Below are positions 8,943 through 39,025 of a stretch of 40,071 bases of DNA, one piece after another. The notes beneath the pieces are model-generated. The model ran no database searches and was not told where the DNA came from. It saw nothing but the letters and a program-made list of their open reading frames with translations. This stretch comes from Pseudomonadota bacterium (lineage in GTDB: Bacteria; Pseudomonadota; Alphaproteobacteria; Acetobacterales; Acetobacteraceae). The translations under genes and the position numbers were made by a program. The stretch lies in NCBI GenBank assembly GCA_021818425.1, contig JAKAEC010000012.1, forward strand, positions 1 through 40,071. Reading direction: 5' to 3'. Numbering within the stretch: position 1 is the first letter of the stretch; the number at the start of each line of letters is the position of its first letter.

Positions 8943-9702
8943 GCGGCAACATCCCGTTCAGCACGTGCATGCATTGGTCGGTGAGATGCTGCGCCGCAAC
9001 TCCGAAGCCGGGAATGGCGGCAACCAGGACCCATAATCCCACTAGGATGAGCAGGGGAAAGCCAATAGAGAGCAGATTCATGCTGGGCGCGAACACCGTG
9101 GTAAGGCCGACGGTAAGATTGACGCACAGTGTTGCCGCCAGCACGGGCATAGCGAGGCCAACAGCAGCGGCGAAGAAATTGCCACCAAGCCCCGTCAGAC
9201 CGGCCCACGAGGAGATGGGTGCAACAACCACCCCATGCGCAAAAGACCGCGCTAGCGCCGCGAAAAGCCAGACAGGGCCGCCCGCCGCCATGTAGCCGAG
9301 CAGCCCAGCCCAGAGCATGAGATCCGACAAAACCCCGCTGGAGCCAACCGTGCCACTAAATTGCAGCTCCGCGAAGGATAGTCCCATCGCCTGCCCCATT
9401 AGCTCACCGGCACTTGAAAACGCCGAAACGACGATCTGCATTGCCATGCCCAGCAGCGCGCCATATGTGATCTGCACAAAGCCCGTGAAGATGGCGCTGA
9501 ACGGATTCTCCGGGTAGGGTGGCAATGCTGGCAACCACATCGCGAGACACAGTGCCAGCGCCGCCGCCAACATGGCCTTGACCATGTTGGGGATGAGGGA
9601 CGAACCATAGAACGGCGCTGTAAGAAACAGGCCGGTTATGCGCAGGAACGGCCACAGAAAGCGCCCGAACCAAAGCATAATTGTGTGTTCGTCTAGTACC
9701 AT
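8935..9702 (-). CDS. fliR: Flagellar export gate protein FliR
   Basis: 255 residues, strongly hydrophobic with about six membrane segments. FliR is the single-copy subunit of the FliP5-FliQ4-FliR1 export gate. The sequence has the family pattern of N-terminal RITGLFLTAPFYGSSLIPNM, central GALLGMAMQIVVSAFSSAGELMG, and the PxMNLLSIGFPLLILVGL block. Its start overlaps the fliQ stop by 10 nt and its stop overlaps flhB by 8 nt. The order fliP-fliQ-fliR-flhB is the classical one. Confidence 0.95.
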   Translation of the reverse strand: MVLDEHTIMLWFGRFLWPFLRITGLFLTAPFYGSSLIPNMVKAMLAAALALCLAMWLPALPPYPENPFSAIFTGFVQITYGALLGMAMQIVVSAFSSAGELMGQAMGLSFAELQFSGTVGSSGVLSDLMLWAGLLGYMAAGGPVWLFAALARSFAHGVVVAPISSWAGLTGLGGNFFAAAVGLAMPVLAATLCVNLTVGLTTVFAPSMNLLSIGFPLLILVGLWVLVAAIPGFGVAAQHLTDQCMHVLNGMLPHG

Positions 9703-9968
9703 GACTGATGCACAAGGATCGGTGCGTGAACAATAAAATCCCTAGCCAAAGATTCAAATACACCAAGCGCGCCGAAGCCGCCTGTGAAGGCGATGACGAC
9801 CATCGCCATGGTTTTCGGCAATAGCGCGAAAGTGGCGTCCTCTATCTGGAACACCGCTTGAAAAATGGAAGTGACAAGCCCGACAATGAGCAACACTGCA
9901 ACGCAGGGTAAAATGGCCGACATTCCGGTTGCAAATGCGTGCTGAAAGAGCTTGAGATAGAGTGGCAT
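9693..9968 (-). CDS. fliQ: Flagellar export gate protein FliQ (copy 1, in the fliOPQR-flhB block)
   Basis: 91 residues with two membrane helices forming a hairpin. It contains the FliQ/SctS core GLVTSIFQAVFQIEDATFAL followed by LPK, close to the family consensus around the Q-A-x-x-Q turn and the following Pro-Lys. It lies between fliP and fliR, the canonical place, overlapping fliP by 1 nt and fliR by 10 nt. A second FliQ-type gene at 27136-27399 is clearly divergent, so this one is the better candidate for the ancestral gate subunit. Confidence 0.93.
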   Translation of the reverse strand: MPLYLKLFQHAFATGMSAILPCVAVLLIVGLVTSIFQAVFQIEDATFALLPKTMAMVVIAFTGGFGALGVFESLARDFIVHAPILVHQSWY

Positions 9969-23478: not shown

Positions 23479-24496
23479 AGACACCAAGCAGCTACCCGCC
23501 CCCTCGGCCCTTTCTGGACCAGAGCGCGCAGCCATGGTGCTGCGTGAACTGGGCGAAGAAACCGCCGCAGCCGTACTGCGCGAGATGGATGAAATGTCCG
23601 TCAACCGCATCTCGACAGCAATGTCGACTCTTAAGGGCGTCACAGCGCAACTGCGGGAAGACGTCTTGCTGTCCTTTGCATCGGATCTTGGCATCACCGC
23701 AATTGGCGGCGACAGCATGAAGTTCTTGAACCGGGTGCTGACAAATGCGTTAGGCGAAAACAACGCGAAGGAAATTCTTGATCGCCTGCGTCGCCATGAA
23801 CGGCGCTCAACCTTCTACCTGCCGCCGAATACCGACGCTCGTACATTAGCGATGCAGATGGCACATGAACGGCCGCAAACCATCGCCCTGTTGTTGGCAC
23901 ATATTCCCCACGACATGGGCGCAAACTTGCTCAGTTTTCTGCCCGAGGCGCTGGCCGCCGAGGCACTTTACCGCTTCTCCAATCTCGATGTGGTTTCACC
24001 TAGCGTGGTGAAAGAGCTGCGCGACATGCTGGACGAATTGGCGATGCAAACCGGGACCGGCGGACGGCGCGTAACCAATTTGGGCGGCGCCAAGCAAACA
24101 GCCGATATCCTTAACCATTTCCCCTCGGCGATGTCTGACACCGTGCTGAGCGCGATTGATGAGCGGGACGCCAAAACGGCAGAAAAAATCCGCGAAAACC
24201 TGTTCACGTTTGTCGATCTCGGTCGCTTGCCAGATCGCTCGATGCAGATTCTGCTGCGAGAAGTACCGTCGGAAAAGCTAGCCCCCGCGCTGCGCCTAGT
24301 GGACGAGACACTGCGGGAGCGCTTCTTCCAGAACCTCTCGGCCAGGCAGGCGGAGGTGCTGAAGGAAGAACTAACAAACGGTCCGCCGATTCGACGTGCC
24401 GACGCTCTGGCCGCACAGAGCGAGGTCGTCGATGCCGCGCTGAAGCTCGCTGGAGAGGGACGCATTTCCATCAGCGCCACCGAGGAGATGGTTTGA
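23471..24496 (+). CDS. fliG: Flagellar motor switch protein FliG
   Basis: 341 residues from the ATG at 23471-23473, which overlaps fliF by 8 nt (ATGACTGA). A longer frame back to 23408 lies inside fliF. The N-terminal domain (SGPERAAMVLRELGEETAAA) binds FliF. The middle domain carries HERPQTIALLLAHI, the counterpart of the EHPQR motif. The C-terminal torque domain includes VDLGRLPDRSMQILLREVPS and LAPALRLVDETLRERFFQNL with its charged residues. It couples stator force to the rotor. Confidence 0.95.
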   Translation: MTEDTKQLPAPSALSGPERAAMVLRELGEETAAAVLREMDEMSVNRISTAMSTLKGVTAQLREDVLLSFASDLGITAIGGDSMKFLNRVLTNALGENNAKEILDRLRRHERRSTFYLPPNTDARTLAMQMAHERPQTIALLLAHIPHDMGANLLSFLPEALAAEALYRFSNLDVVSPSVVKELRDMLDELAMQTGTGGRRVTNLGGAKQTADILNHFPSAMSDTVLSAIDERDAKTAEKIRENLFTFVDLGRLPDRSMQILLREVPSEKLAPALRLVDETLRERFFQNLSARQAEVLKEELTNGPPIRRADALAAQSEVVDAALKLAGEGRISISATEEMV

Positions 24497-25884
24497 TGCC
24501 GGTTTCACCTCCCATATCCGTCACGCAAAGCACCGCACCGTCTGCCAGCACCGGAACGGCAACGGACGCCTCGGCGTGGCAGAACGCGTTGGCCAATACC
24601 AGCGACAACACCGCAGCCAGCACCAATGCCAACACCAATGCCAACACTGTGCCCGCGCCAGCCAAGTCCACCAGTGCGCCGCATGATCTCACCACCCGCA
24701 AGGCGTCAGCTGACCCGACACCATCAGCTCTGGCGGAGGACAGCACCTCGGCGCAACACACCGGGACACCCGAAGCCTCCGTGCTGCTTAGCGCCACCAC
24801 GCCCTCGAAGCATACCCGACAGGAAAAGCAAACGCTTCTGCCGGCAACGCCTGTAGGGCTAGCCGTGCCTCTCCAGCCAGTGCCGGAAAAGCTGAGCGCC
24901 ACAAGCAACGCGAAAGCACCGAGTGACACCGGCCAAACCACAACCAGCACCGAACCCGGCCAAGCGGCCGCAGTAGGCAACTCGCTTGTACCGGCAGCCA
25001 GCGCCACTCAGGCCATTACTGGGGCTGGTGTTTCGACGCCCCATTCAACTTCAGCAGCCACGCCCAGCACGAACGACGTGAAACCCGCTAGCACTGCGGC
25101 AAATGCCGCACCGGCTATACCGGCGCCAGAACACAACTTGCCCTCCACGCAAGCGGTAGTTAGTGCCCAACGCGGGTCCACGCCAAGCATTACACCGTCC
25201 CGCGCTACCACTACCGCGGGCACCGCTGCTGCCACTGCTGCCACTGCTGCCACGACCGCTGCCACGGAAGCACCCGTCGCCAAAGGGCCTGTTGTTTCCA
25301 CCAGCACGGCTCAGGCTGTCAGTCTGCGCACGGCGCAGCTTGCCGACGCCGGCACCGTACTGCGCAGCGGCAAGGAGGATAAAGCCAACGCCCAGCAACT
25401 CCCCCCCTTCGGTGGGACGGGCGCCAGCACCGCTATCATCCCGACTGTCAATGCCAGCAGTGTTCCCGCTACCACGGGAACAAACGCCATCTCCGCCAAT
25501 ACCGGCACGAGCGCGACAGCGCTGGCGGCGACGGTCACGGCACTGCATCAATCCGGCCAGACCAGCACAGTACTCCGGCTGGACCCACCAGGACTTGGGC
25601 ATCTCTCTGTGCAGGTCAATCTTAGCACGCAGGGACAAGTAAATGTGCTGTTCGTGCCCAGCTCCGCCGACGCCGCGCAGGCCATACAAGCCTCCCTGCC
25701 CGGCTTGGGCGGCGCCATGGCGCAGTCCGGCCTAACGCTAGGCCAAGCGCAGGTGGGCGGACAGTTCTCCCAGCAAAGTGGGCAGAACGGGCAAAACGGC
25801 TATACCCCGCCTCGCCAGAACCAAGCTGCCACTTTCAGCGCCGACGCATCCTCCACGCCGAGCGGAATAAGCGCATATGCTTGA
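24496..25884 (+). CDS. fliK: Flagellar hook-length control protein FliK
   Basis: 462 residues. The first 330 or so are a low-complexity Ala/Thr/Ser/Pro-rich region consistent with the flexible ruler. The C-terminal domain (about residues 350-420) shows the Flg_hook pattern VLRLDPPGLGHLSVQVNLST and GQVNVLFVPSSADAAQAIQA, which signals FlhB to switch substrates. The ATG (24496-24498) overlaps the fliG stop by one base, and the stop overlaps fliM by 8 nt. Short tandem repeats at 24622-24645 and 25228-25254 could alter its length by slippage. Confidence 0.85.
   Translation: MPVSPPISVTQSTAPSASTGTATDASAWQNALANTSDNTAASTNANTNANTVPAPAKSTSAPHDLTTRKASADPTPSALAEDSTSAQHTGTPEASVLLSATTPSKHTRQEKQTLLPATPVGLAVPLQPVPEKLSATSNAKAPSDTGQTTTSTEPGQAAAVGNSLVPAASATQAITGAGVSTPHSTSAATPSTNDVKPASTAANAAPAIPAPEHNLPSTQAVVSAQRGSTPSITPSRATTTAGTAAATAATAATTAATEAPVAKGPVVSTSTAQAVSLRTAQLADAGTVLRSGKEDKANAQQLPPFGGTGASTAIIPTVNASSVPATTGTNAISANTGTSATALAATVTALHQSGQTSTVLRLDPPGLGHLSVQVNLSTQGQVNVLFVPSSADAAQAIQASLPGLGGAMAQSGLTLGQAQVGGQFSQQSGQNGQNGYTPPRQNQAATFSADASSTPSGISAYA
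24622..24645 (+). repeat. fliK: Tandem 12-bp repeat inside fliK
   Basis: ACCAATGCCAAC occurs twice in a row (24622-24633 and 24634-24645), encoding Thr-Asn-Ala-Asn twice in the flexible N-terminal part of FliK. Indels of whole units keep the frame. Confidence 0.8.
25228..25254 (+). repeat. fliK: Tandem 9-bp repeat inside fliK
   Basis: GCTGCCACT is repeated at 25228-25236 and 25237-25245, with a third copy differing only at the last base (25246-25254). It encodes Ala-Ala-Thr units in the linker ahead of the FliK C-terminal domain, and unit changes keep the frame. Confidence 0.8.
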
Positions 25885-27139
25885 AATCGACCCGAACTCA
25901 GAGGTTATCGATCTTCTGGACCCGATGCGCGTACCACTCCTGCGCTCGGTACTTATGGAGACATTGGCCGACCGTTTCATGCGGCAAATCGCCTTTGTGC
26001 TGTTTCAACGCATGCGCCATTCAGTGCAACTGCTCTCCTGCATCCAGAACGTCATCAGCCATGAATCCGCGATGTCGGCCCTGCCTGAGGTTATGCTGGC
26101 AGGCATTTCCGAACTCACGCCCTTACGCGGGCGCATGTTGCTCGCCATCGACGGCGATTTGATCGGTGCGATGGTGGACGCCATGTGCGGTGCCACCAGC
26201 GCGCATCCGTTCGAGCGCTATGAACTCTCGGTCCTGGAAACCCGCATTGGCCGGCAAATGGTCGATCTGGCCTTTGCCACCATCACCGAAACGTTCGCGC
26301 CGATTGTTCCACTCAGTCTTGCGGCCATCGCCTATGAGAACGCAACCGGCATGCTTGCCATTGCCGACGGTCAGGACTGGATGATTGCCGTTACCGGTAT
26401 TTTCGAAACGGAGCTAGGCTCCGGTACTATCCGTCTCATAGTACCGTATTCCGCATTCGAAACGTTGGAGGCCAAGATCGCCAACCAGTCCGGCCTGCTT
26501 GGCGGACGAGGTACAGATACCAGCTGGGTGAACGGCATTGCTCAGCTAACAGATAGCACCACACTGGAATTAAGCTTTGAGCTGGCTCGCGCCAATGTGC
26601 CGCTGGCTGTGTTTCAAGCGCTGCGCCCGGGTGACCTGCTGCCCGTGACACTCTGGCCACACGCAGTGGCGGTGGGCGGCGGAGTAGATTTGTTCCTGGC
26701 GGATTACGGTCAGGAAGACGGACACATTTGCTGCCGCGTGAAAGCCGAGGAAGAAGGAGAGAATGAAATGGCCGATCAAAAAGAGCGCCTAACTGGCGCG
26801 GAAAAACTCATCGAGCCTGAGCGCGTTGAACTCGAACGACTACAGGCATTGCCGCGCGGCGTACCCGCCGTCACGGCGAAAGTGGTGATGGACCGAGTAC
26901 AAGTCGCCGTAGCGGTGGAACTGGGCCGCACGCAGATCAGCATAAAAGACCTTCGCACCTTGCGGCACGGGCAAATTTTACAGCTAGACCAAGTGATCGG
27001 CGAACCGCTGGCGATTTTTGCCAATGGCCAGAAGCTCGCCTACGGCGAGGTCGTTGCGGTGGCGAATGACCGTTACGGCGTACGCGTGACTGCGCTCGCG
27101 GAAGATGTCGTCAAGGAAGAGGAAGAGACCGCTTCATGA
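25877..27139 (+). CDS. fliM: FliM-FliN fusion, flagellar motor switch / C-ring protein
   Basis: 420 residues in one uninterrupted frame. Residues about 15-205 correspond to the FliM middle domain (LADRFMRQIAFVLFQRMRHS; ELTPLRGRMLLAIDGDLIGA). Residues about 225-290 are a SpoA domain (LELSFELARANVPLAVFQAL, LRPGDLLPVTLW). After a charged linker (EEEGENEMADQKERL), residues about 335-415 are a second SpoA domain typical of FliN (VELGRTQISIKDLRTLRHGQ, LAYGEVVAVANDRYGVRVTA). No separate fliN is in the window. The start is firm, since an in-frame TAA lies at 25868-25870. The usual N-terminal CheY-binding LSQxEIDALL peptide is therefore absent, and the FliG-contacting GGxG is replaced by CGATS. An internal start at 26768 may also yield free FliN. 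It overlaps fliK by 8 nt and the next gene by 4 nt. Confidence 0.88.
   Translation: MLEIDPNSEVIDLLDPMRVPLLRSVLMETLADRFMRQIAFVLFQRMRHSVQLLSCIQNVISHESAMSALPEVMLAGISELTPLRGRMLLAIDGDLIGAMVDAMCGATSAHPFERYELSVLETRIGRQMVDLAFATITETFAPIVPLSLAAIAYENATGMLAIADGQDWMIAVTGIFETELGSGTIRLIVPYSAFETLEAKIANQSGLLGGRGTDTSWVNGIAQLTDSTTLELSFELARANVPLAVFQALRPGDLLPVTLWPHAVAVGGGVDLFLADYGQEDGHICCRVKAEEEGENEMADQKERLTGAEKLIEPERVELERLQALPRGVPAVTAKVVMDRVQVAVAVELGRTQISIKDLRTLRHGQILQLDQVIGEPLAIFANGQKLAYGEVVAVANDRYGVRVTALAEDVVKEEEETAS
26754..26770 (+). promoter_or_regulatory. Internal ribosome-binding site and ATG that could produce free FliN
   Basis: AAGGAG at 26754-26759 is followed after 8 nt by an in-frame ATG (26768-26770, codon 298). 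The product would be a 123-residue protein ending at 27139, the size of a normal FliN with its SpoA domain. The spacing is optimal for initiation. Type III secretion SctQ proteins (SpaO, YscQ) are known to make a C-terminal fragment from just such an internal start. Use of the site here is inferred. Confidence 0.6.
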
Positions 27140-27399
27140 GTGTCAACGGCGTGAACAACGGCGCCTGGCTGGCCTTCGCCGAACTCGCCGGCCCCACGCT
27201 AATCCTTATGCTGGTCGTCGGGCTAGGTGCGGGTATTCTGCAAACCGCCACACAGGTACGCGAGGCTTCAATTCCCTTCGTGCTCAAGCTGGCCGGTCTG
27301 GCGGCCCTTACCACCATTGCCGGGCCATTGATGATGGGCGGGATAGATCATTACGCCACACGACTGTTTACTGCCATCCCGAGGCTTCTGCATGGCTGA
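27136..27399 (+). CDS. fliQ: Second FliQ-family export gate protein (divergent copy)
   Basis: 87 residues with two membrane helices. The core LVVGLGAGILQTATQVREAS, followed by IPFVLK, aligns with the FliQ/SctS hairpin: the Q-x-x-x-Q turn and the downstream Lys are kept, but the Pro before Lys and the S-I-F are changed. It aligns through most of its length with the FliQ at 9693-9968 while being clearly different in sequence. It overlaps the fliM/N stop by 4 nt (ATGA) and flhA by 8 nt, so it is translated with the switch protein and FlhA. It could be an additional or alternative gate subunit; a diverged non-functional copy is less likely given the clean frame and coupling. Confidence 0.82.
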   Translation: MSVNGVNNGAWLAFAELAGPTLILMLVVGLGAGILQTATQVREASIPFVLKLAGLAALTTIAGPLMMGGIDHYATRLFTAIPRLLHG

Positions 27400-29470
27400 A
27401 GCCCTCGCCATCGTGCGCCCACGCGCTTTTAGCCTATCCCAGCTTTCGGGGCCGGTTGTCATCTTAATGGTGTTGGTGATGCTGGCTGTGCCTCTGCCGC
27501 CACCCGCCATCTCCTTTCTGTTCGCTCTCAACATATCCGCCGGGCTCGTAATTCTGGGCGCATCACTCTACATCCCCTCCCCGTCCGAGTTCTCCTCCTT
27601 CCCCTCAATTCTACTGGCCACCACGCTTATGCGTCTGGCGCTGAACGTCGCCACTGCGCGCGCCATCCTTCTCAACGGCTATACCGGGCCGGGGGCGGCC
27701 GGGCACGTCATCGAATCCTTCGGCCAGTTTGCCGTAGGCGGCAATTACGTCGTCGGCGGCATCATCTTCCTCATTCTCATCATCATCAACTTCGTCGTCG
27801 TCACTAAGGGCGCCTCTCGTGTCGCGGAAGTCTCCGCCCGCTTCATGCTCGACTCATTACCAGGTCGGCAAATGGCGATCGACGCCGAGATCAATGCAGG
27901 CATCCTCTCACCCCAAGCGGCAGAACGGCGGCGCGACGCGCTAAGACGCGAGGCGGATTTCTTCGGCGCCATGGACGGCGCTTCCAAATTCGTGCGTGGA
28001 GACGTGGTGGCGGCTATGATCATCCTCGCTGTCAACATGATCGGCGGGCTCGTCATCGGCACGCTGCAATATGGGTTGCCGCTTAGCGATGCGGCGCGCA
28101 CCTACACACTACTCACGGTAGGGGATGGCCTGGCCGCACAAATTCCCTCGCTCACTATTTCGGTCGCGGCTGGCCTGGTTGTCACGCGCGTTGCCACCGG
28201 CGAGGATATCGGCGCGCAGATCAAATCCCAACTCTCCAAATATCCGCAAGCGCTGGCCATCGCTGCAGCGATCACTGTCGCAATTGGGCTAGTGCCGCAG
28301 ATGGCGCATATCCCGTTCCTAATGCTCGGCGGAGCACTTGGCGTGGCCTCTTGGCGGCTCTCCCGCCCCCGGCTGGAAGAAGAGCCAGCAGACGGCGCAG
28401 CAGACGAAGCCGCAAAGCCGGAGCTGAAGCCAGACAGCCTGACGGATGTTTCCGGCGTGGATCCTCTGGGCATGAATATCGGCTTTGCCTTGGCGCCAAT
28501 GGTAGGGCAGGGCGAGGGCCGGCTACTCGGTCGGCTCACTGCCGTGCGCCAGCGCTATGGCCGGGCCATGGGGTTTCTGGTGCCCGCCGTACATATCCGC
28601 GATTCTTCGGAGCTTCCTGCACATGGCTACCGCTTCACACTGCGGGGCGCAGCGATCGGCAGCGGCGAGGCTTGGCCTGGCCAATGGCTAGCTATTGAGG
28701 GCCCGATGGTGGTGGAGAAGCTCACCATCGGCCGCCCGGTGAAAGACCCAGCCTTCGGTCAGAATGCGGTATGGATTCCGCAAGGCGCGATCCCTGCGGC
28801 GGAAGAACTCGGTTACACAGTGGTGGACACAGCCTCCGCCATCGCTACCCATTTCGCCGAGACACTGAAACGCCACGGGGCTGAGCTGCTGGGCCGCCCG
28901 CAAGTAGAAGGGCTGATGACTCGCTTGGCCGAGACCACGCCGCGCTTGGCAGAGGACCTGCGTGCCGCCCTCTCCGCTGGCGTCATCCGACAGGTCTGCC
29001 AGGGGCTGCTGGCCGAGGAAGTTCCAGTGCGGGATTTCGAGCGCATCGCCGAGGCGCTGGTGGAGGCAGCCGATAACGGCACAAAGGAGCCTGAGCGCCT
29101 GCTGTCAGCCGTGCGGCTACGGTTGGGACGCTTTATTGTCGGCCAGTTGGCAGGGGCTGAACCGACTTTGCGGGTGGCTGTGCTGCAGCCAAAACTGGAA
29201 GAGTTGGTAAGCAAGTCTGTACGCGCGGCACGGGAAGCCGCAGGTACCGAGGTCGAGGCCGAAATCGCTACCCATCTGCGCCAAGCAGCGGAACAGGCGG
29301 CCAAGGCCATGCGCGCGCGCGGCGCTAAGCCAGTGCTGGTCGTGCAAGCGGCGATGCGTCGAGCTGTGGCAAAGTGCGTGAGCGGACTGCTGCCGGTGAT
29401 TGCGCTGGAAGAAATTCCTGAAACCATGCCGTTGCAGGTGGTGCACACGGCCGAGCCCGCCCATGGCTGA
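27392..29470 (+). CDS. flhA: Flagellar export gate protein FlhA
   Basis: 692 residues. The membrane half has about eight helices with the conserved LFALNISAGLVILGASLYIP, SFPSILLATTLMRLALNVAT and FVVVTKGASRVAEVSARFML, then the FHIPEP-type loop DSLPGRQMAIDAEINAGILS and RREADFFGAMDGASKFVRGD. The cytoplasmic domain (after about residue 330) forms the nonameric chaperone-docking ring. It uses ATGGCTGA overlaps with its neighbours on both sides (8 nt with the second fliQ and 8 nt with fliA). Confidence 0.96.
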   Translation: MAEALAIVRPRAFSLSQLSGPVVILMVLVMLAVPLPPPAISFLFALNISAGLVILGASLYIPSPSEFSSFPSILLATTLMRLALNVATARAILLNGYTGPGAAGHVIESFGQFAVGGNYVVGGIIFLILIIINFVVVTKGASRVAEVSARFMLDSLPGRQMAIDAEINAGILSPQAAERRRDALRREADFFGAMDGASKFVRGDVVAAMIILAVNMIGGLVIGTLQYGLPLSDAARTYTLLTVGDGLAAQIPSLTISVAAGLVVTRVATGEDIGAQIKSQLSKYPQALAIAAAITVAIGLVPQMAHIPFLMLGGALGVASWRLSRPRLEEEPADGAADEAAKPELKPDSLTDVSGVDPLGMNIGFALAPMVGQGEGRLLGRLTAVRQRYGRAMGFLVPAVHIRDSSELPAHGYRFTLRGAAIGSGEAWPGQWLAIEGPMVVEKLTIGRPVKDPAFGQNAVWIPQGAIPAAEELGYTVVDTASAIATHFAETLKRHGAELLGRPQVEGLMTRLAETTPRLAEDLRAALSAGVIRQVCQGLLAEEVPVRDFERIAEALVEAADNGTKEPERLLSAVRLRLGRFIVGQLAGAEPTLRVAVLQPKLEELVSKSVRAAREAAGTEVEAEIATHLRQAAEQAAKAMRARGAKPVLVVQAAMRRAVAKCVSGLLPVIALEEIPETMPLQVVHTAEPAHG

Positions 29471-35602: not shown

Positions 35603-38600
35603 ATGTCAGATGCCATTTTCATTGTTGGCTATTACCGCAGCGGCACGTCGGCACTTTCCGGTGCGTTGCAGCGGGCGGGCGTAAAATTTTATAACGAAGC
35701 GGATCCAAATGAGCACAATCCGCTCGGTTTTTACGAAATTCCAGAATTGATCGAGCTGGACGCAAACTTGTTTACCCGCCTCGGCGTCGACTGGATGGAT
35801 GTACGCGGCCTGCCCGATGGCTGGACCGAACGGCCGGACATAATGCCTTTCCTGACTCGACTGGAGGATTGCCTACGCCGCCGCTTCAACCAGGAAGACA
35901 AACTCTGGGGCCTGAAGCACCCGCATCTATGCCGCACCTTGCCCCTTTACGAACGCGCCGCGCGGCAGGCCGGGCACAAGCCACATGTCGTGCATATTTT
36001 CCGCGACCCATGGACAGCCGCCTCCAGTCAGAGCCGGAAAAACGGTCTCTCCCGCGCTCACGCGCTACTGCTGTGGATGAGCTACGCCACGGGTGCAGAA
36101 CGGCAAGCTCGGCATTTGCCGCGCTGCTGGCTCACCTATCACGAACTGCTGGCCGAACCCGTCGCGCAGGTCCGCCGTATCGAAGCCGCGCTTGACGTTG
36201 CCTTCAACAAAGACAACTTGGCTGATGTCAACGCCTATCTCACCGGCCAGCTCAACCGTTCCGAACCGCTACCTTGCGAGGGTCTCAGCCGCCCCCTTCA
36301 CGACCTCGTCTTCCGCACATGGGAGGCGATCAAATCCCGTGAATTTTCCGCCACGCTATGGGACGATTTCGCCGCGCAGACAGCTGACTTAGTTGGTTTC
36401 CTGAGTGAAATCGGCACCAGTCGGGGACGCGCCCTACCGGGCTTCGGCAGCATCGCGGCCGCTGCTTCTTCCACCACTGCAGCCACTCCGATCCGCCCGC
36501 CGGAGCGCACGGATGACGGCGCCAAGGCTCGGCTAGAGCAACTGCGTGCAGCAGCGGCCCCTCTGCCCCGAGTGGCGGTGCTGATCGCCGCGCCCGCCGG
36601 CCGCGCGGCCGCTGTGAACGAAACACTGGAGAGTCTGCGCGGGCAATGGGCTCGCCCCACGCTCATCAAAGTTCTAGCCGCTGATCCGTTAACCCTGGAC
36701 GGCGTTTCAACCATCGCCGTCCCGGCAGAACCGGAGGCAATGACCCGGCGGCTGTGCGCCGAACTCAATCTCTGCGCTGATCAGGCCGATTACGTCGCCA
36801 TCCTCAACGCGGGGGATACCATCGCCCCGGACGGCTGCCTACGCTTTGCGCTGCTAGCGGCGCAAACTAAGGCCGACATGATCTATTCCGACGAGGTCGT
36901 GCCCCGGGAGACAGGTGCCTGGATCCGCCATAAGCCGGGCTGGGATGTCACTCGCCTGCGCCAAGCCGCTTATATCGGCGATTGGGTGTGGTACGGCACA
37001 GCCGCGCTACGGGCAGCGGGCGGCTTCGACCCCGAGGAAGCCGGCGCAGAGGAGTATGGCGTGCAGCTGCGCCTAGCGGCTAATTCTGCCAAGGTGGAAC
37101 GGCTGGCCGAGGCGCTGTTCATTCGCGGCCCTCAAAGCCGGCGAGACGACATCGTCCCGCAGGATTTCTGTGCCCGCGCGGCAGAAGCCCTCTCCCGGCA
37201 TCTCGCCGCGGCTGGCATGCCGGCGCAAGTGCAGAACCGCCAGCACCCCGGCCTATTCCATCATGTCCGCGATACCGAAGACCCCGGCACCTCGATCATC
37301 ATGCTATGCGACGGTGCCGAGATTCCCCTGCTCGACAAATGGCTGACCGCGCTGCTGAGCGGCCGCAAGCTGAGCGGCCCAGTGATCCTGGCCGGGGCAG
37401 AGCTATCCACGGAGATGACCAACTATCTCACTGCCGTCTCCCTCCAGCGGGAGGCGCTGGAGGGCCAGGTTCTCGCAATTATGGCAACCAGCCAGGGTGC
37501 CGCCCTGGCCCAGGCCGTGGCACTGGCTGAAACACCGCTAGTGGCAATTCTGGATGCGCGCATGCGCGAAGTTACCCCCCATTGGCTGGAAGCCTTGCGC
37601 GTCCGACTGGCAGACACTGGCGTTGCTGCCGTGGCAGCCCGCACCCTCACCCCCACGGGCGGGGGTGGCAAGCAGGGCGAGGTGCAAGGCCCAATTGTGC
37701 TAGGCGGGGATGCTCGACTAGGCACTGGGCATGGGCCGATGGACCCTGGCCCCGGCGGCTGGCTACTTGTTGACCAGGAAGCCAGTGCCATCGCGCCGCC
37801 TGGCCTTCTCGCCCGCCGCGAGGCCCTTGCTGCCTGCAATATGGCTGAGCATCTAGCGGGCGACGCGTTCTGGATCGACGTCTGCGCCCAATTACGGGCG
37901 GGCGGCGCCCGACTGGTCTGGACACCTGACGTAAGCTTCGTAATACCACCCGAAGCGCTGTCAAAGCCCGACACGGATTGTACCTTCCGCACTGGCTCAC
38001 CCGCTGCAAGCGCCCTGCCATGGGCCGATCCGTATCATCACCCTGCCTTGTCCTTGCACGGCGATCTGCTGGCGCCAGAGCCACGCAACGGGCTGGTGCG
38101 CGCCACGCCCGCCGATCCCACCAGCCTGTTGCTAAGCGGTGACGCGGCAAAGGCTAGCGTCGCCTTGAACGCTGCACGCGCGCTACGCAATGCCGGCACC
38201 ATCGAGGCCGATTGGGTGCAGGGCCTGCCCAGCACGGCCGATATAGGCCGACGCGCGCCGCAAAACTGGGTACGGGTAAACCCTCAGGAGCCACCGCATG
38301 ACCCCCGTACGCCCCATACCGCGCTGATTACCACCATGCCCGAACCGGATGCCCAGCCTGCCCTGGCGGCGGCGGCACGCATCGTCGCGACCTCACCGGG
38401 GCTCGTGGATAATCTGCGCAAGCTGATGCACGGCTCCGTTCCGGTCTCACTGTGGCGACCCGCTCTTTCGCGTCAGCATTGGCGGCATTTGCAGGCTGGC
38501 ACCGGGCTGAACACCAAGCCGCGCGTGCTCTGGATGGATGAAGGCATCGCACCGCCCTGGTTCATGGAACTGGTGAACGAAACGCTGGAACTCGCGGCCT

Positions 38601-39025
38601 GGATCGTCGTTGAACGACCCGGCACCAATTACACGGGCGCTGTTGGCCGCCTAGCCCCTCAGGAAACCGAGGAGGACTGGGCAAGCGCTTTTGCTCAGCT
38701 TGGACCGCAGATCATGGTCCGCCCGGCGGCCAGCGGATTTCATGCCGACCACTACCCGACCTTGCTTGCCGCCGCCGCAGGTTGTCGTATCATCACGGAC
38801 AGCCGCCTGGATACGCCCCTGAGCCTTGACGTTTTGCGCCTGCCTAGTCGCAAGCAAGATTGGTTGGCGGCACTGCGGCAGGCCATCACCGACCTGCCTG
38901 AAACCCTGAGGCTGGGTGCCAAGACCCGCCAAGCGGCATTGGCGCTGCCGGCCATTGAGGACGAACCTCCCGCTTGGGCCATCGCGGCACCATCCGTCGC
39001 TGCCATGGCCAGCGCAGCCGAATGA
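35603..39025 (+). CDS. Large sulfotransferase plus glycosyltransferase-like protein within the flagellar operon
   Basis: 1140 residues. Residues 1 to about 270 are a PAPS-dependent sulfotransferase: the 5'-phosphosulfate loop FIVGYYRSGTSALSGAL (residues 6-22) and a 3'-phosphate motif VHIFRDPWTAASSQS (about residues 128-145). From about residue 320 a GT2-like fold begins (VAVLIAAPAGRAAAVNETLE; VAILNAGDTIAPDG near residue 397; ADMIYSDEVV). A second GT2-like block starts near 640 (VAILDARMREVTPHWLEALR). The end (from about 925) resembles the C-terminus of a GT1-type enzyme (IVATSPGLVDNLRKLM; YPTLLAAAAGCRIITDSRLD). No signal peptide is seen. It sits 11 nt after flgL and overlaps flgA by 4 nt, so a role in modifying a flagellar protein is likely. 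Donor, acceptor and activity are unknown. Confidence 0.8.
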   Translation: MSDAIFIVGYYRSGTSALSGALQRAGVKFYNEADPNEHNPLGFYEIPELIELDANLFTRLGVDWMDVRGLPDGWTERPDIMPFLTRLEDCLRRRFNQEDKLWGLKHPHLCRTLPLYERAARQAGHKPHVVHIFRDPWTAASSQSRKNGLSRAHALLLWMSYATGAERQARHLPRCWLTYHELLAEPVAQVRRIEAALDVAFNKDNLADVNAYLTGQLNRSEPLPCEGLSRPLHDLVFRTWEAIKSREFSATLWDDFAAQTADLVGFLSEIGTSRGRALPGFGSIAAAASSTTAATPIRPPERTDDGAKARLEQLRAAAAPLPRVAVLIAAPAGRAAAVNETLESLRGQWARPTLIKVLAADPLTLDGVSTIAVPAEPEAMTRRLCAELNLCADQADYVAILNAGDTIAPDGCLRFALLAAQTKADMIYSDEVVPRETGAWIRHKPGWDVTRLRQAAYIGDWVWYGTAALRAAGGFDPEEAGAEEYGVQLRLAANSAKVERLAEALFIRGPQSRRDDIVPQDFCARAAEALSRHLAAAGMPAQVQNRQHPGLFHHVRDTEDPGTSIIMLCDGAEIPLLDKWLTALLSGRKLSGPVILAGAELSTEMTNYLTAVSLQREALEGQVLAIMATSQGAALAQAVALAETPLVAILDARMREVTPHWLEALRVRLADTGVAAVAARTLTPTGGGGKQGEVQGPIVLGGDARLGTGHGPMDPGPGGWLLVDQEASAIAPPGLLARREALAACNMAEHLAGDAFWIDVCAQLRAGGARLVWTPDVSFVIPPEALSKPDTDCTFRTGSPAASALPWADPYHHPALSLHGDLLAPEPRNGLVRATPADPTSLLLSGDAAKASVALNAARALRNAGTIEADWVQGLPSTADIGRRAPQNWVRVNPQEPPHDPRTPHTALITTMPEPDAQPALAAAARIVATSPGLVDNLRKLMHGSVPVSLWRPALSRQHWRHLQAGTGLNTKPRVLWMDEGIAPPWFMELVNETLELAAWIVVERPGTNYTGAVGRLAPQETEEDWASAFAQLGPQIMVRPAASGFHADHYPTLLAAAAGCRIITDSRLDTPLSLDVLRLPSRKQDWLAALRQAITDLPETLRLGAKTRQAALALPAIEDEPPAWAIAAPSVAAMASAAE

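Follow-up and report, generated by a model that had tools for sequence, protein, structure and literature searches.

A single reading frame for FliM and FliN

The window analysed here is a 40,071-nucleotide stretch from a genome of the acid-loving genus Acidocella, family Acetobacteraceae (GenBank assembly GCA_021818425.1, contig JAKAEC010000012.1). It holds a flagellar gene cluster in which FliM and FliN are encoded by one gene, which we call fliMN (Table 1). The preliminary description of this locus, made from the DNA letters alone, had proposed that one open frame joins a FliM middle domain, a FliM SpoA domain, a linker and a FliN-type SpoA domain. It had also pointed to an AAGGAG motif 8 nt ahead of an in-frame ATG, from which a FliN of 123 residues could be translated. 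Both the frame and the motif are as described, in coordinates as well as in length; the letters between AAGGAG and the ATG are AGAATGAA.

Table 1. Features of the fliMN locus, with positions counted from the first letter of the window
Feature	Position	Strand	Remarks
Fused fliM-fliN gene (fliMN)	25877..27139	+	420-codon open frame; PF02154 and two PF01052; 420 amino acids
FliM middle domain, residues 26-200	25952..26476	+	PF02154, E 3.2e-18, 66.7 bits (cut-off 27)
SpoA1, the FliM C-terminal domain	26555..26743	+	PF01052, 29.9 bits (cut-off 23.8)
Predicted free FliN with FliN-type SpoA2	26768..27139	+	123 amino acids, 13.5 kDa; PF01052, 71 bits at 26891-27097
Internal Shine-Dalgarno AAGGAG	26754..26759	+	Predicted duplex -9.3 kcal/mol; Gly294 codon
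Internal start codon ATG (Met298)	26768..26770	+	Conserved Met column; low local structure
fliMN start overlapping fliK stop, ATGCTTGA	25877..25884	+	Weak Shine-Dalgarno, -3.5 kcal/mol
fliK, upstream neighbour	24493..25884	+	PF02120
fliQ-family gene, downstream neighbour overlapping fliMN stop	27136..27399	+	PF01313
Putative flhA, further downstream in the operon	27392..29470	+	Open reading frame; name read from sequence

A Pfam scan of the 45.7 kDa protein (mass computed, as is that of the fragment from codon 298) finds two stretches of PF01052 (E 4.9e-27). The first follows PF02154, as in a FliM, and the second is of FliN type. The best NCBIfam matches are, in this order, FliM (TIGR01397, 137.9 bits), FliN (TIGR02480, 74.2 bits) and SctQ (TIGR02551, 68.6 bits), all three below their curated cut-offs of 219.6 (equivalog), 84.05 and 100.8. 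Since the FliM of a split relative in the Alphaproteobacteria (G1076) likewise misses the TIGR01397 cut-off, with 106.7 bits, we take FliMN to be a divergent flagellar switch protein of a divergent FliM lineage. For TIGR02480, the free FliN of a sister genome (G204) scores 75.3, below the cut-off, and the FliN of G1076 scores 85.6, above it. Membership in SctQ was ruled out by the score and by a gene neighbourhood that is flagellar, not that of an injectisome.

Two motifs of the FliM part are of interest. The N terminus reads ExLDLLD in the alignment and xxIDLLD in the fusion (25877-25925), which we take to resemble the CheY-binding motif EIDALL, and at about 26183-26200 CGATS stands where FliM presumably has GGxG as a rule. 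Both may mean changed contacts with CheY and FliG.

Nucleotide conservation at the internal start

We aligned 35 fused genes, of which 29 from 27 genomes have the internal start (here 'clade A') and six do not ('clade B'). Clade A is a label for having the start and not a demonstrated clade; for example, the genes of G206 branch beside clade B. The six clade B genes (from G053, G179, G204, G224, G232 and G233) were excluded from the start statistics. L058, which a contig end truncates, enters neither the FliM tree nor the structure and codon-bias scans, and it had no other in-frame ATG to compare, so that the duplex comparison covers 28 genes and not 29. Full-length starts were picked by rule and not from annotation. 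The rule gave TTG for L033 and L067, although for L033 an ATGCTTGA further upstream is more likely to be the start.

A methionine occupies the column of Met298 in 28 of the 29 clade A genes, and the remaining gene, L049, has a ATGATGATG cluster nearby, at which its internal ATG was placed by hand. Around this methionine the linker varies in length and sequence. By eye, the only protein features conserved in the aligned linkers are the methionine itself and an ERVELE stretch.

The predicted Shine-Dalgarno duplex averages -8.8 kcal/mol at the internal start, compared to -2.0 kcal/mol for 334 other in-frame ATGs of the clade A genes (those in the first 20 residues or within 5 residues of the site excluded). 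It reaches -7.4 kcal/mol or stronger in 25 of 29 genes and is stronger than at all other compared in-frame ATGs in 25 of 28. The mean of the set lies below all 300 synonymous shuffles (shuffle mean -7.3, standard deviation 0.35, minimum -8.5).

Because shuffles of one gene are too weak singly, we used a column-wise scan of codon usage. The scan covered 310 well-filled columns in 28 genes, and the strongest codon bias is at Gly294, whose codon lies in the Shine-Dalgarno motif and is GGA in 24 of 25. It is the sole GGA-rich column of the 28 glycine columns, and elsewhere in the clade A genes GGA accounts for 74 of 935 glycine codons. Second among the 310 comes Leu2 (CTT in 24 of 25), where the overlap with the stop of fliK holds the code; this column acts as a positive control.

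The mRNA at the internal site is also weakly structured in clade A, with a mean minimum free energy of -4.4 against -12.4 kcal/mol, and 25 of 28 genes have it in their least structured fifth. In clade B, this is true of the same position in only one of the six genes (L035). Within the window, four of the 236 in-frame internal ATGs in 35 other presumed genes match or exceed its duplex strength of -9.3 kcal/mol, none has as little structure as the fliMN site (-1.8 or weaker) and none combines the two; among 23 nominal ATG starts, none has so strong a duplex. The anti-Shine-Dalgarno sequence assumed in these calculations matches the 16S end in 3 of the 38 genomes of the genus by pattern search; the pattern gave no match in the other 35, that of the window included, presumably as the 16S end is not assembled there.

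Conservation of the internal start of fliMN extends to its nucleotides. The preliminary description had looked to relatives for a conserved internal ribosome-binding site, and the site and its ATG are indeed kept across the 27 genomes, ahead of SpoA2, as expected of a switch gene with dual translation. We consider it very likely that translation of fliMN, a natural fusion of flagellar switch genes, begins at two starts and gives FliM-FliN and free FliN.

Alternatively, the internal start could be a relic of a former separate fliN, in which case the cell would make no product but the fused protein and would build its C-ring from that alone. In the nearest split relatives the start of fliN does overlap the end of fliM, so that a recent fusion should still carry such a relic, and a Salmonella mutant with such a fusion still makes a limited number of C-rings. 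Nevertheless we find this explanation improbable: the start is kept across genes with protein identities as low as 46%, it lies at the most biased codon of the gene and where the mRNA is open, and it persists despite differing residues, for example with GAG-GAG-GAG in L034 and GGA-GGA in L063. Still harder to accept is a protease that cuts free FliN out of the fusion. Being charged and variable, the linker probably is exposed, but cleavage leaves the conserved Shine-Dalgarno codon, the ATG and the low structure unexplained, and no linker motif other than the two features named above is visible by eye.

No separate fliN is detected in genomes with the internal start

The fused frame is present in 31 of 38 Acidocella genomes (the copy of G211 is cut by a contig end), among them the named species A. 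facilis (G187), A. aminolytica (G200), A. aquatica (G201) and A. aromatica (G202). The other seven comprise five without any SpoA match and two with only unfused-type matches. The fusion also occurs in two genomes of the Acidisoma group, including that of A. silvae, and a third genome of that group (g54), G130, gave one weak match alone (E 1.4e-5).

The preliminary description had tied dual translation to the lack of a separate fliN. A profile search detected no SpoA domain outside the fused frames in 27 of the 31 fusion-bearing Acidocella genomes, including the four named species, and thus no fliN in the genome of the window or in the other 26 with the start. Ten of the 27 are at least 98% complete; in one of these genomes, G140 (10 contigs, 100% complete), the search found no second SpoA gene. 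The genome of the window, which is 86% complete, likewise gave no second PF01052 match by this search. These genomes accordingly combine the fusion and its conserved internal start with no other detected SpoA gene.

We find it scarcely credible that free FliN comes from a separate fliN that escaped detection. The incompleteness of the window's own genome and the free fliN of sister lineages speak for such a gene, but in the sister lineages it occupies the operon slot that the fusion takes here, and the profile that detected the free fliN of five sister genomes found none in the 27. Although the window genome is a draft in 116 contigs, an assembly or sequencing error that joined two genes or hid a stop, a concern of the preliminary description, is already refuted by the same fusion in the 31 genomes of the genus, named species included.

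Outside Acidocella and Acidisoma, no full-length single-frame match was among those listed for samples of the family (200 genomes), order (299), class (385) and phylum (398, at E <= 1e-20); as the searches order genomes by resemblance to FliMN, a fusion that arose independently could have escaped them. Some partial matches fall in long open frames, for example one of 451 codons in G962 of the phylum sample.

Two genomes have two fused fliMN genes each, in separate loci: G187 (C6 and C3, genes L033 and L034) and G206 (C24 and C228, genes L067 and L049). All four genes keep the ATG in the linker, with a weaker Shine-Dalgarno in L033, L049 and L067. Two further Acidocella genomes, G203 (C50 and C30, genes L073 and L044) and G223 (C6, gene L072), have FliM of the unfused type and no detected fusion. 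In G203 there is a free FliN as well, whose closest grouping is with FliN from other genera of the family, which suggests an exchange of flagellar systems.

Sister lineages carry a free fliN in the slot of the fusion

In three Acidocella genomes (G204, G224, G233) and two of the Acidisoma group (G053, G179), the fusion lacks the internal start and a separate free fliN is present, as expected where the start is absent. None of the clade B fusions has a methionine in the Met298 column. The gene order in these five genomes is fliF-fliG-fliK-fliN-flhA, so that the free fliN sits in the operon slot held by the fusion in the window. The names in this order were read from the sequences, except for fliN (profile) and for flhA in G204, G224 and G233 (protein match). 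A fliQ between fliN and flhA is resolved in G204 and G233 and not by the open reading frame filter in G224, G053 and G179, and the fliN of G053 was taken from the profile search and not from the frame listing of its operon. The clade B fused gene lies elsewhere. In G179, G204, G224, G233 and G232 it is divergent to a putative receiver (CheY-like) gene, and in G053 it lies near putative CheA/CheW-like genes, again named from sequence.

Free fliN and internal start are mutually exclusive in 32 of 32 informative genomes (27 with the start and 5 with the free gene). G232, which has the fusion without the start and in which no free fliN was found, was set aside because it has no flhA match either, an indication that the fli operon is apparently missing from its assembly. 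Counting 27 versus 5 as independent cases was rejected, as the tree needs one change. Clade B fusions are 44-49% identical to the FliMN of the window in the five compared, and their SpoA2 scores are 46.8-51.9 bits in the four Acidocella genes and 48.7 and 60.3 bits in those of Acidisoma, compared to 69.8-83.0 bits in genes with the start. Motility and a polar flagellum are reported for one of these bacteria, A. silvae HW T2.11 (G179; PMC8537097).

A proposed route to the C-ring ratio

In the dual-translation reading, translation from 25877, probably coupled to that of fliK, would produce the 420-residue FliM-SpoA1-SpoA2 protein, and initiation at the ATG at 26768, where the ribosome-binding site is the stronger of the two and the mRNA is open, would produce the free FliN of 123 residues. 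A C-ring unit would then consist of one fusion and two free FliN, perhaps in this 1:2 ratio, which amounts to FliM1:FliN3 as in ordinary C-rings. In a PDB listing one FliM accounts for 317 chains and one FliN for 951, each across 16 entries, a proportion of 1:3. The FliM:FliN complex of T. maritima is also 1:3, and Spa33 forms a 1:2 complex of its full-length and short forms (PMC4832279). Salmonella cells with only a FliM-FliN fusion (Kihara 1996, cited in PMC4832279) make few and fragmented C-rings, and FliN complements them while FliM does not. Given this rescue and the 1:3 ratio, a fused motor should need free FliN, which the internal start would supply.

In 23 of 28 clade A genes the internal Shine-Dalgarno surpasses the one at the full-length start, which agrees with an excess of FliN over the fusion, duplex energy being a crude guide to yield. 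We infer that the predicted 13.5 kDa product is made, is needed and sets the FliM:FliN ratio, with the amount of free FliN and its assembly with the fusion as predictions of the same kind.

Several observations weigh against translation from two starts. The site is weaker (-5.3 to -6.4) in four of the 29 genes, L033, L039, L049 and L067, and in L033, L049 and L067 another in-frame ATG has a stronger duplex. In 5 of 28 genes the stronger Shine-Dalgarno is that of the full-length start. In no individual gene is the duplex clearly stronger than in that gene's synonymous shuffles (lowest p value 0.05, in L051), since the Glu-Gly residues by themselves favour a motif of this kind. The sequences are related and not independent, so that the bias figures imply more events than there were. 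Likewise, clade B is one side of a single branch of the FliM tree (99/94; 99/95) and stands for one evolutionary change, not five. Finally, the completeness of the window's own genome, given above, limits the search for a separate fliN there.

Comparison with known switch proteins

The usual view is that flagella have FliM and FliN as two proteins, and that joining them in one gene is a feature of SctQ in the injectisome. Among the matches listed in the open-licence literature, we recognised no natural flagellar FliM-FliN fusion with dual translation. The closest published statements, both in PMC4832279, are a hint of alternative expression of T. maritima fliY and an internal start in E. coli FliN.

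SctQ (Spa33, SpaO, YscQ, SsaQ, HrcQ) is the nearest analogue, a single gene with an N-terminal part, SpoA1 and SpoA2 and an internal start that yields a SpoA2 fragment (PMC4832279); for fliMN that fragment is a prediction. Unlike SctQ, fliMN lies in a flagellar operon, encodes a FliM middle domain and scores far higher as FliM than as SctQ. The split fliM and fliN of the Alphaproteobacteria G1076 and G377 have homologous domains, and G1076 has the order fliK-fliM-fliN-fliQ (fliK and fliQ putative), but they are two overlapping genes in different frames. FliM and FliN share one chain in the Salmonella fusion mutant (Kihara 1996; PMC4832279) and in the 4YXB/4YXC construct (PMC7505661), which are laboratory products, the mutant expressing the fusion alone, with fragmented C-rings. 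The fusions of Acidisoma and of Acidocella G204, G224 and G233 are homologous fused genes, but lie by putative chemotaxis-type genes, lack the internal start, have a lower SpoA2 score and coexist with a separate fliN in the operon slot. FliY of T. maritima and B. subtilis also ends in a FliN-type SpoA at the end of a longer protein, whereas it is a FliN equivalent with a CheC-like domain that acts alongside a separate FliM (PMC6946799).

The preliminary description had suggested that this flagellum 'converged on' the injectisome strategy. The wording is fair: FliM and FliN outscore SctQ, though all are below cut-off, and the nearest split relatives have overlapping flagellar fliM and fliN. A flagellum that does likewise, in a genus with cultured species, would offer a natural test of how C-ring stoichiometry is set and of the origin of SctQ, with the sister lineages, whose FliN has its own gene, as a built-in comparison.

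Origin of the fusion

The closest split relatives found in the phylum sample are the Alphaproteobacteria G1076 and G1103, in which a FliM frame of 296 residues is followed by fliN. In G1076, fliN overlaps fliM by 20 nt in another frame, and the pair lies between putative fliK and fliQ, named from sequence. G377, from the family of the window, has adjacent fliM and fliN that overlap by about 11 nt. Judged from these arrangements, a change of frame in overlapping fliM and fliN would fuse the genes and leave the start of fliN inside.

In rooting the trees, far outgroups gave very long branches and others were substituted; a later tree excluded the canonical FliN rows and the far outgroups of FliM. 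The SpoA2 domains of both G206 fusions form a group with free FliN (99/97, and 86/96 in the later tree), and the SpoA2 of clade B fusions are on long branches. A constraint that places the SpoA2 of start-bearing genes and free FliN together is neither rejected nor demonstrated (p-AU 0.256). The tree fixes neither the date of the fusion nor the order of fusion and fission, and the shared operon slot favours the free fliN of clade B as a later fission.

On balance, and by a small measure, we favour the view that Acidocella flagella independently repeat the presumed step that made SctQ. Overlapping fliM and fliN would have been joined in frame with the fliN start kept, so that dual translation of a single gene provides all FliM and FliN of the C-ring. 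The arrangement would have been reversed in Acidisoma and some Acidocella, where the copy in the operon was reduced again to a free fliN, and another copy of the fusion, by chemotaxis-type genes, lost the internal start while its SpoA2 diverged.

Neighbouring genes and other features of the cluster

Pfam scans identify fliE, fliG and fliK upstream of fliMN, and a fliQ-family gene and a sigma-70-family factor downstream. The fliF, flhA, motA and motB genes of the window are putative, their names having been read off the list of open reading frames. fliMN overlaps both of its neighbours, fliK with its ATG and the fliQ-family gene with its stop.

This cluster has two FliQ-family genes (PF01313), one by fliP (9693-9968, minus strand) and the one directly after fliMN, and both are under the FliQ equivalog cut-off. 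A stand-alone receiver (CheY-like, PF00072; 20990-21361, minus strand) is divergent to fliE and may be the motor's own CheY. Receivers that are similar by eye are divergent to the relocated clade B fusion (L038, L066, L069, L071, L074). Finally, an open reading frame of 1140 amino acids (35603-39025, plus strand) with a sulfotransferase-like start (PF13469) lies within the flagellar cluster, possibly for flagellar glycosylation.

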